Shown here: positions 14,781-58,432 of the stretch, one piece after another | Numbering within the stretch: position 1 is the first letter of the stretch | How the letters are laid out: every line of letters starts with the position of its first letter | Position numbers and translations under genes: made by a program | The notes under the pieces: model-generated | What the model was told of the DNA's origin: nothing | Database searches by the model: none | What the model saw: only the letters and a program-made list of their open reading frames with translations | NCBI RefSeq assembly: GCF_007066085.1 | Contig: NZ_CP041405.1 | Coordinates: 2,418,001-2,482,000 of the forward strand | Length of the DNA stretch: 64,000 bases | Direction: 5' to 3' | From: Paenibacillus thiaminolyticus | GTDB taxonomy: Bacteria > Bacillota > Bacilli > Paenibacillales > Paenibacillaceae

Positions 14781-14898
14781 CTTGTCAGCACTCTCCCATC
14801 GAGTCAGAAGGCCCTGCCCGCTCCTTGTCAGCACTCTCCCATCCGGTCAGAAGGCCCTGCCCGCTCCTTGTCAGCACTCTCCCATCCGGTCAGAAGGC
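14781..14898 (+). repeat. 43-bp tandem repeat, nearly three copies
   Basis: Units start at 14781, 14824 and 14867; the third is partial. Each contains the core CAGCACTCTCCCATC followed by GTCAGAA. The same core recurs near 56864, 57009 and, inverted, 58155. The copies are nearly identical with no unique spacers, so this is not a CRISPR array. It lies between the divergently placed RpiR gene and the TetR gene end. Confidence 0.85.
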
Positions 14899-43460: not shown

Positions 43461-43590
43461 TATCCCCAAGCCTCAGGTGCTGCACCATGCGGTGCACTAT
43501 CCCCAAGCCTCAGGTGGTGCACCATACATTGCAATTATCCCCAAGCCTCAGGTGGTGCACCCTACATTGCATTATCCCCAGGACTCATGT
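43461..43590 (+). repeat. 37-38 bp tandem repeat, three to four units
   Basis: Unit starts at 43461, 43498, 43536 and 43573 are marked by TATCCCCAAGCCTCAGGTG. The remaining bases carry GTGCACCATACATTGCA-like sequence. The last unit is diverged. Confidence 0.85.
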
Positions 43591-56294: not shown

Positions 56295-56741
56295 AGAACG
56301 TAGCATAATACCCCGATCGACGGCATAACGCTGTATCTTCTTCAAAGTCGGCTTTCGCCCCAAGCCCAGCGTCCGCCTCGCTTGACCGTCCGTAACCAAG
56401 CAGCCGTTCACCGTACGGTCCAGATGCTCTCAGCATTGGCGGGAATCAAAATATCGTGAACCTCAAGCCGAATAACATTCGGCTTCCTTCTACCGCCCCA
56501 TTATTAATGCTCCTTCCCTGCTCCATTCTCCCTCGCCCTGCACGCACACTATTCTATCTAGTACTTTATCTTATTTTTTCGATAAGAACAAACGCTCGCT
56601 TTTCTCTGTTACTTTACTCTGTTTTTTACTCTGTACTTTACTCTTTTACTTTACTCTGTTGCTCTGTTGTTCTGTTGCTTTTCTTTACTTCTTTTCTTTG
56701 CTCTTTCACTTTGTTGCTTTCACTTTCTTGCTTTCCCTTTG

Positions 56742-56790
56742 TTGCTTTCTTTCCTGCTTTCTTTCCTGCTTTCTTTCCTGCTTTCTTTTG
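56742..56790 (+). repeat. 12-bp tandem repeat in a pyrimidine tract
   Basis: CTGCTTTCTTTC repeated about four times at the end of a C/T-rich tract. Confidence 0.8.
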
Positions 56791-56925
56791 CAAAGCAATT
56801 TTATTGCAGAGCACCTCCTGTTTCTAACCTTCCCCAGCAAGTATGGGGTCTTCCGTACCTTAACAGCACTCTCCCATCTAATCAGAACCCAATGCGAATA
56901 TGTTTTCGATACTTCCCGAATATAT

Positions 56926-56980
56926 GCGGGTATTATTCGAGTATACTTCGAGTGTATTTCGGGTATATTTTGAGTATATT
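56926..56980 (+). repeat. 11-bp tandem repeat, five units
   Basis: TCGAGTATACT-type units start at 56926, 56937, 56948, 56959 and 56970. The period is close to one helical turn. Confidence 0.85.
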
Positions 56981-57095
56981 TCAAGCAATGTTCTGAATAC
57001 TTCCTCTACAGTACTATCCCTTCCCATCAGAATCGCGCCCCGAAAATGTTCTCCTCCAAAATATCTATAAGTTTCCGCGATATTCCATTTCAATC

Positions 57096-57143
57096 TTGAA
57101 ACAAGAACCTATGTTCGATATAATGGAATTAGAACAAATGTTC
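57096..57143 (+). promoter_or_regulatory. Promoter flanked by two LexA-type boxes
   Basis: TTGAAA (57096-57101) and TATAAT (57119-57124) with an exact 17-bp spacer. GAACCTATGTTC (57105-57116) sits in the spacer and GAACAAATGTTC (57132-57143) just past the predicted start. The Bacillota SOS box is CGAACRNRYGTTYC; the second site fits its core fully, the first except for one inner base. The pair is 27 bp apart. Confidence 0.75.
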
Positions 57144-57162
57144 TTTGTGAAGGAGGCAGACG

Positions 57163-58086
57163 TTGGTGTTAAATAAAGTGGAGAACATAGCTACTCTAGA
57201 GGAATTGTACCGCCGCTTCCCGACAGAGTCCGCATGCGCCGATTACCTTGTTCAATGGAAATGGCCGCATGGCTTCTCTTGCCCGCGATGCAAGCATCAC
57301 ACCGCTTATATGACGAAGACCCGCCGGCTTCCCATCTATGAATGCCGCGCTTGTCGCCATCAGACTACGCCCACCGTCGGCACGGTCATGGAAGGCAGTC
57401 GTACACCTTTGCGCAAGTGGATGACCGCGTTTTGGTTATTTTCCCGTGCTCAGGAAGGAATCAATGCCGTTCGCCTCCGCTCCCTCATACAGGTTACATA
57501 TAAGACCGCCTGGTCGATGCTTCATAAGATACGGGCTGCAGTCAGTCATGCTCACGCTAAGAAGCAGCTGTCCGGCGATGTTCAGGGCATTGTCGTATTC
57601 TATGGCAGAGCCTACCGCCCATCTGTCGAACTCCATCCAGGAGAATGCGCTCTAATCGTTGCTGAATCCATCGAGCCGGAAGAGGAGCTTCCTCAGCTCA
57701 AGATGACGCTAGTGAACAAGAAGCATGTTATCGAAAAACGCCTGTACCGTACTGGCTCGAACAGTTTATTAACGACCATGTCGAGCCGAACTCTACTGCT
57801 CGCGTCTCCATTATCGACCAGTTTTTTCGGGTACGCAGAAATAGCCCATTATATCAGACATTCCAACAAGCATGCCGTTGGCTGAACGATACGTTTCACG
57901 GAATTGGGCCCAAGTACTTGCAGCGCTATGTAGATGAGTTTATTTTCCATAAAAACTTGGATAACACCGTTAGTCCATGGACACGGCTGCTTTCGTTATG
58001 CGCATCCGTCTGTCCCCGTTCTTTCCCTGGAAATAAGCCGTATACAAGACCTAACGCAATTCACTCGAAATCACTTGCAGCTTAAT
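57163..58086 (+). pseudogene. IS1595-like transposase gene, frameshifted and catalytically degenerate
   Basis: Starts at TTG 57163 (or GTG 57166) behind AGGAGG. The N-terminus has the IS1595 zinc ribbon (CPRCKHH...YECRACRHQ) and the helical part PLRKWMTAFWLF...YKTAWSMLHKIRAAV. Where the catalytic VDE of the DDE core is expected, the sequence reads VQGIVVFYG, without Asp. At the A5 run 57734-57738 the frame shifts; one added A restores KTPVPYWLEQFINDHVEP and the family C-terminus WLNDTFHGIGPKYLQRYVDEF. It is either a decaying insertion sequence or, given its SOS-type promoter, a domesticated derivative. Confidence 0.72.
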
Positions 58087-58432
58087 TCTCTTTATTGTTC
58101 GTCTATTTCGGCCCAGCTTGCACACCTAGTGTCAGCTAGCTTTATGGCTGTTAAATCTGAGCCAATGGGAGAGTGCTAATAAGGACGTAAGGACATTGGA
58201 CCCTTAGCTCGTCCCGGCCTCTCATCTTATTCACCCCATAATTCATCTATCTTGCCCTCTTCTCTTAGAACAGCCTTCACAAATTTCAACCGGACGTGGG
58301 TACCACAATCACCCAATCGTATACTGGTCAATTCTGCTATTTTCATATATGAATATCCGGTAGTCATTCTAGTAATTGGAGTTCGCAACGATACGGACAA
58401 AAAGAAATGTCGAAGGGAAGGGAGCCATAACC
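58087..58432. other. Intergenic region after the transposase-like gene
   Basis: About 345 bp that includes an inverted copy of the dispersed 24-bp element (58155-58178). A 38-codon minus-strand frame ending at 58227 has no ribosome site or known match and was not called. Confidence 0.5.
58155..58178 (-). repeat. Inverted copy of the CAGCACTCTCCCATC element
   Basis: Read on the minus strand it gives TAGCACTCTCCCAT, four variable bases, then CTCAGAT. It agrees with the copies at 14786 and 56864 at about 20 of 24 positions. Together with the left copies it brackets the transposase-like gene. Confidence 0.7.

Follow-up and report, generated by a model that had tools for sequence, protein, structure and literature searches.

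The 64,000-nucleotide stretch of Paenibacillus thiaminolyticus DNA analysed here (the window) contains a broken member of a multi-copy, IS1595-derived protein family. Judging from the sequences compared, the members of this family are probably SOS-induced, catalytically dead transposase-derived proteins that bind the arrays of a short motif, TCCCN6TCAG, found around their genes and elsewhere between genes. No description of the protein family was found in the open-licence literature, and a family of disarmed transposases placed behind a DNA-damage switch is apparently hitherto undescribed. The paralogues and the arrays lie beyond the coordinates, or beyond the window, covered by an earlier sequence-only reading of this DNA, and hence were missed there. 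The parts of the window locus are as follows.

56872..56885, + strand: TCCCN6TCAG motif, upstream outer copy, facing the gene
57017..57030, + strand: TCCCN6TCAG motif, upstream inner copy, facing the gene
57096-57101, + strand: -35 element TTGAAA, read from the sequence
57105-57116, no strand assigned: LexA-type box 1, GAACCTATGTTC, within the promoter spacer between -35 and -10
57119-57124, + strand: -10 element TATAAT, read from the sequence, 17 bp from the -35 element
57132-57143, no strand assigned: LexA-type box 2, GAACAAATGTTC, at the predicted transcription start, shortly past the -10 element
57151..57156, + strand: AGGAGG, likely ribosome-binding site, read from the sequence
57163..57885, + strand: N-terminal open frame, TTG start at 57163, 240 aa
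57220-57363: zinc ribbon PF12760 (E=1e-11) in the N-terminal frame
57735..58085, + strand: C-terminal piece in a different frame, homologous from about 57760
58157..58170, - strand: TCCCN6TCAG motif, inverted, downstream of the gene

The promoter proposed by the sequence-only reading, TTGAAA-17-TATAAT with two LexA-like boxes, is confirmed at the coordinates listed above, and the zinc ribbon that it described as retained is indeed present. The C-terminus, also described as kept, is there too, as the very end of the PF12762 (DDE) domain: the C-terminal piece matches only positions 121-153 of 153, the last 33, in the other frame and with 25.9 bits, slightly under the curated cut-off of 27. The frameshift is real as well, but its placement in the A5 run at 57734-57738 was wrong; since the intact relative P0045 matches the first frame (VIEKRLYRTGS) beyond that run, the frame change must lie about 20 bp farther on, and homology of the N-terminal frame to intact relatives stops at about 57760. 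As read here, the frameshifted window copy cannot encode a full-length protein, and it is either decaying or affected by a sequencing error. Upstream of the gene, the window also holds pyrimidine-rich tandem repeats of 12-24 bp (56599-56788 and 56936-56982), a region in which TTCGAGTATAT occurs in four copies.

The P. thiaminolyticus genome contains seven members of the family, the window copy and six paralogues with open frames, which share 49-58% identity with the window copy over the aligned part; many near-identical copies with intact DDE residues, an outcome that the sequence-only reading had named as one that would mark an ordinary decaying element, are absent from this genome. Across the genus, the family is present in 10 of 19 genomes, with 60 loci counted. 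The genus set used below comprises 59 of these, leaving out L041, a 387-bp fragment with stops; internal stops occur in four further loci (L032, L033, L098 and L120), and G014 and G018 each have one interrupted family copy. In the wider bacterial family, 41 of 118 sampled genomes and 11 of 19 genera carry the gene (E<=1e-30). Of 8000 candidates scored in a protein search, 2194 were relatives at E<=1e-5, and 120 of these were listed; named relatives among the matches listed belong to Paenibacillus, Cohnella and Ammoniphilus, the Paenibacillus carriers among them including P. thiaminolyticus, P. dendritiformis, P. apiarius, P. profundus and P. alvei, together with others. Databases label these relatives transposase or IS1595 family transposase. 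From these three genera a named set of 80 loci was assembled, 14 of which (L121-L132, L138 and L147), matched by their position and the length of their contig, are also in the genus set. IS1595-type genes of another branch were encountered as well: L230 (G000:C1:4713837-4714307, + strand), in the same genome, has most of the DDE domain and no close SOS box at its start (best, two mismatches), and L231 (G017:C5:63524-63985, - strand) has apparent DDE-type Asp motifs (VEMDETY, LCTDSW) and a perfect SOS box, GAACAAGTGTTC, immediately 5' of a TATAAT.

Within the 64-kb window, the pattern GAACN4GTTC occurs at two sites only, both at this promoter. That count is not unusual (0.77 expected; two or more in 20 of 100 shuffles), and over the whole genome the bare pattern shows no enrichment (111 occurrences against 112 for the reversed control). 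The argument for the boxes rests instead on their position and conservation. Two boxes 26-32 bp apart, each with at most two mismatches to GAACN4GTTC, are present at 53 of the 59 genus promoters (ten genomes), and in all 53 the layout is shared, with box 1 between -35 and -10, box 2 shortly past -10, and a TANNNT starting 1-3 bp past box 1. In Markov shuffles of the promoter stretches, 1.58 of 59 were paired on average and 7 at most, and downstream control stretches gave 3 of 59; at one mismatch or fewer per box, 35 of 59 promoters remained paired, compared to a shuffle mean of 0.01. Five of the six unpaired promoters have a single perfect box 33-42 bp 5' of the match, while the sixth, L031, has a perfect box at -157 and, refetched as L147, a pair at -185 and -157 that fell outside the range of the first scan. 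In the named set, a box with no more than one mismatch lies within 220 bp upstream at 72 of 80 loci (downstream control, 4 of 80); a perfect box is present at 52 loci and a pair at 46 (downstream control, 0 and 0), and a few of the 72 look like chance matches (L149, a tandem repeat also within the 46 pairs, and L155).

The same operators are found at the core genes of the SOS response. In all 19 genus genomes the recA promoter carries GAATGTATGTTC, a 12-mer identical to several family boxes, and the lexA promoter carries five boxes with at most one mismatch each; a single lexA promoter in the genus, that of L068, contains a 12-mer identical to box 1 of the window, GAACCTATGTTC. As in same-genus recA and lexA, a LexA operator thus lies over the promoter, the arrangement by which a member of the SOS regulon is recognised, and together these observations are strong sequence evidence for SOS (LexA) control of the family. 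A second recA was also seen in G008 (L093, G008:C292:12870-13829, + strand), on a 17-kb contig and with a differing upstream box, GAACATATATTC.

Catalytic residues were compared in an alignment of 192 rows, with no filtering for redundancy, made up of the listed homologues longer than 260 aa (of 120) and the named loci giving more than 200 aa before a stop. All 192 rows retain the Cys4 of the IS1595 zinc ribbon, and none has Asp at both of the first two catalytic sites, the two to which the comparison applies, the third position being not reliably alignable. An acid is found at the first site in 12 rows and at the second in 13, and at both in only four, with Glu second. Measured against an active IS1595 transposase, the zinc ribbon is there and the catalytic DDE/N residues are missing. 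The loss of a catalytic Asp noted in the window gene is thus true and family-wide, and there is strong sequence evidence that the family as a whole has lost its catalytic acids. The rest of the architecture is predicted to persist: the modelled structure is RNase-H-like (pLDDT 90.3), and alignment with ISKpn3, ISAeca5 and ISRhtr1 indicates that the DNA-binding helices are kept.

Eight syntenic orthologue groups occupy fixed places in the genus, and the dN/dS of orthologues ranged from 0.10 to 0.26 in every compared pair (the broken L098, L120 and window copy being left out), consistent with purifying selection. Orthologues without boxes, which the sequence-only reading had held would count against it, did not appear; the family-wide comparison that it called for found both the boxes and the missing Asp conserved, and the fixed orthologues have the boxes. 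A different picture is seen in Cohnella silvisoli, where seven copies (L167, L168, L172, L173, L174, L176 and the interrupted L177) share 88-94% identity across roughly 1.5-1.7 kb that takes in the motifs, and lie in differing surroundings. Repeats of about 70-80 bp lie either side of the gene in these copies, and dN/dS among them averaged 0.29, with single pairs up to 1.53. These copies suggest mobility or past spread, against purely vertical descent.

The TCCCN6TCAG motif brackets the family genes and nearly always faces them. Taking a motif that faces the gene in the upstream flank as forward, the genus loci have 159 forward and 10 reverse motifs upstream, 0 and 72 downstream, and 0 and 1 in the gene bodies; the named loci have 162 and 3 upstream and 0 and 97 downstream. 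By comparison, 217 kb of outer flanks of the named loci contain only 11 motifs (4, 1, 3 and 3). At least one correctly oriented motif, facing the gene, is found at 79 of the 80 named loci, and four Cohnella loci have a single motif on each side. The consensus drawn from 423 non-redundant sites, chosen also with T at -2, reads approximately C[TC]T[AT]TnnnCAnT[AC]TCCCnT[TC]nRCTCAG[GA]A. No systematic pairing covariation was detected over these sites (highest z 3.4 among 252 pairs), and a linear double-stranded site therefore fits better than a REP hairpin.

The motif also forms solo arrays, that is, arrays with no family gene, two of which lie in the window.

14794..14893, + strand: gene-less intergenic array of three motifs with a 43-bp period
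43463..43551, + strand: gene-less array of three motifs with a 37-38-bp period

Four related genomes have an array orthologous to the first, containing 7, 4, 3 and 3 exact copies of the motif; for the second, no exact motif was present at the mapped place in G007, where the alignment is a poor basis for comparison. In 464 kb of the P. thiaminolyticus genome (a sample that counts 2 kb twice, L295 overlapping the window), the motif occurs 70 times, compared to 9 for the reversed control, 9 for a gap of 5 and 14 for a gap of 7, while 400 kb of a family-less genome gave 10, 5, 11 and 7, respectively. The larger arrays in the 464-kb sample run + then -, in other words convergently. Clustered motifs avoid genes, only 3 of 43 falling in ORFs of at least 200 aa, which cover 80% of bases; of singleton motifs, 15 of 27 do so. 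When 262 kb were mapped to G007, a matching cluster lay no more than 600 bp from the corresponding position for 16 of 23 motif clusters, including six of the seven multi-motif ones, mostly with a different copy number. We found no account of these intergenic repeats of varying copy number in the open-licence literature.

Array pairs, defined as two motifs 20-50 bp apart, number 80+91 (two strands) in the P. thiaminolyticus genome and 165+186 in G007. They are absent from 10 of the 19 genus genomes, and the reversed control gave none in any of the 19. Of the ten genus genomes with the gene, eight have pairs (G014 and G018 lack them), compared to one of the nine gene-less genomes, with a single pair. 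The association extends to the 118 genomes, in tests that ignore relatedness: pairs occur in 29 of the 41 carriers of the gene and 13 of the 77 non-carriers (p=1.2e-8, Fisher's exact test), at least four pairs occur in 21 of 41 and 1 of 77 (p=5e-11), and genomes with more family genes tend to have more arrays (Spearman 0.68). Altogether, 663 of 695 array pairs are in gene-carrying genomes and 32 in gene-less ones, the reversed control yields 13 pairs in four genomes, and 12 of the 41 gene-bearing genomes have no array pair. One genome, G095, has 13 array pairs and no family gene at E<=1e-30, and perhaps contains a remnant or a more divergent relative. At orthologue group D, the P. thiaminolyticus genome analysed here lacks the gene and has about 4 bp in place of 1252 bp of the filled site, with one breakpoint within a motif and the outer motifs persisting on both sides. 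Conversion of a gene-bearing array to a gene-less array, or the reverse, is therefore possible.

These observations can be assembled into a mechanism of four steps, for the first two of which there is strong sequence evidence. LexA bound to the two operators, in the spacer and at the start site, would keep each gene off, and DNA damage would switch it on. The protein made would keep its zinc ribbon, DNA-binding helices and RNase-H fold with the catalytic acids gone, and because those acids are lost no DNA cutting by the DDE route is expected. It would then bind a linear site some 27 bp long, approximately C[TC]T[AT]TnnnCAnT[AC]TCCCnT[TC]nRCTCAG, the site that brackets the gene in inverted orientation and recurs chromosome-wide in convergent intergenic arrays; we infer array binding from the bracketing, the co-occurrence and the retained DNA-binding domains. 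By conjecture, the induced proteins might finally occupy the arrays during SOS as a multi-site DNA-binding factor, serving in bridging, fork or recombination control, autoregulation or the holding off of related elements, and the six open paralogues of P. thiaminolyticus could perform this step. A farther reading, which we offer tentatively and think rather less likely to hold than to fail, is that of a chromosome-wide site system: damage would release LexA, and several paralogous dead transposases would load onto the convergent arrays to organise the chromosome or to control forks or recombination, much as CENP-B is paired with its satellite arrays, but in bacteria.

The chief alternative is a selfish element, still mobile, with an unusual or borrowed enzyme, whose motifs would be multi-site transposon ends, whose solo arrays would be gene-less derivatives, and whose damage-induced movement would be catalysed by a non-canonical active site or by a partner transposase. 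Transposon ends with multiple sites are familiar from Tn7 and Mu; the inverted bracketing resembles terminal repeats, with a single motif per side at some Cohnella loci, and the RNase-H fold is retained. The closely similar C. silvisoli copies, alike in their motifs as well and found in different surroundings, speak for this explanation too, but no target-site duplication was recognised at them by eye. An SOS-controlled transposase gene also has a precedent in ISCR, as described in PMC13393415. We nevertheless judge continuing mobility unlikely, given that Asp at both catalytic sites is found in none of the 192 relatives, that eight orthologue groups sit at fixed places under purifying selection, and that six of seven multi-copy clusters are matched in G007. 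Far less credible is an ordinary decaying insertion sequence with chance box-like sequences. The frameshift and lost catalytic residues of the window copy would suit it, as would the transposase labels of its relatives, but the paralogues are open and only 49-58% identical, the boxes are found at matching points of the promoter in 53 of 59 loci, and the conservation seen in the dN/dS of 0.10-0.26 already contradicts it.

Two further alternatives would each sever one link of the preferred reading. If the arrays had nothing to do with the protein, they could be host structures of a shared lineage, for example terminator-associated repeats; the association tests do ignore relatedness, the solo arrays pass down by vertical descent while their copy number varies, and array pairs occur in 13 of 77 gene-less genomes. 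Such independence seems improbable when 79 of 80 loci are bracketed in one orientation, against 11 motifs in 217 kb of outer flank, and when array number tracks gene number. The boxes, in turn, could be operators of another repressor, for example of the TetR type, since GAACN4GTTC-like palindromes are not peculiar to LexA and also suit other repressors, and several copies of box 1 read AAACATATGTTT, two steps off the core. The identical 12-mers in same-genus recA and lexA promoters leave this very little room.

If SOS-induced, catalytically dead proteins do bind these arrays, the SOS regulon in Paenibacillus and related bacteria would gain a multi-copy protein family, a DDE transposase would have been stripped of its chemistry yet retained its site, and a class of intergenic repeats with varying copy number would be explained. 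The system would also offer an experimentally accessible example, in bacteria, of repeat arrays that go with a protein of transposase origin, and an independent parallel to REP/RAYT from another protein superfamily.

Among known systems, the IS1595 transposases ISKpn3, ISAeca5 and ISRhtr1 share the zinc ribbon, the DNA-binding and C-terminal helices and the modelled RNase-H-like core, and differ from the family in that here the catalytic Asp residues are lost and two LexA-type operators and motif arrays are present. REP/RAYT systems (TnpA-REP) and REPINs resemble the family in their layout: inverted repeats stand on either side of a gene for a transposase relative, and further copies of the repeat are scattered through intergenic DNA, commonly in inverted pairs. 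RAYTs, however, are HuH tyrosine proteins acting on hairpin REPs, according to PMC8266576 and PMC3116915. An assignment to REP/RAYT was considered and rejected: of its defining features, the bracketing by inverted, also dispersed repeats is found, whereas in place of an IS200/IS605-like HuH tyrosine protein there is a DDE-derived one with an IS1595 zinc ribbon and RNase-H-like fold, and in place of a hairpin-forming palindrome a linear motif, with no pairing covariation across the 423 sites, accompanied by SOS operators. Because the HuH protein and the hairpin are both missing, we do not file the family under REP/RAYT. A transposase gene under LexA has been seen before: that of ISCR, a mobile element with an active transposase, is LexA-controlled, as described in PMC13393415. 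Such control is predicted for the present family too; here, in contrast, the catalytic acids are absent and the loci fixed. We know of no damage control of CENP-B, the pogo-derived centromeric DNA-binding protein of eukaryotes whose site lies in satellite tandem arrays. The likeness to CENP-B lies in the pairing of a transposase-derived protein with an arrayed site, to which, from its sequence, the protein described here is predicted to bind.
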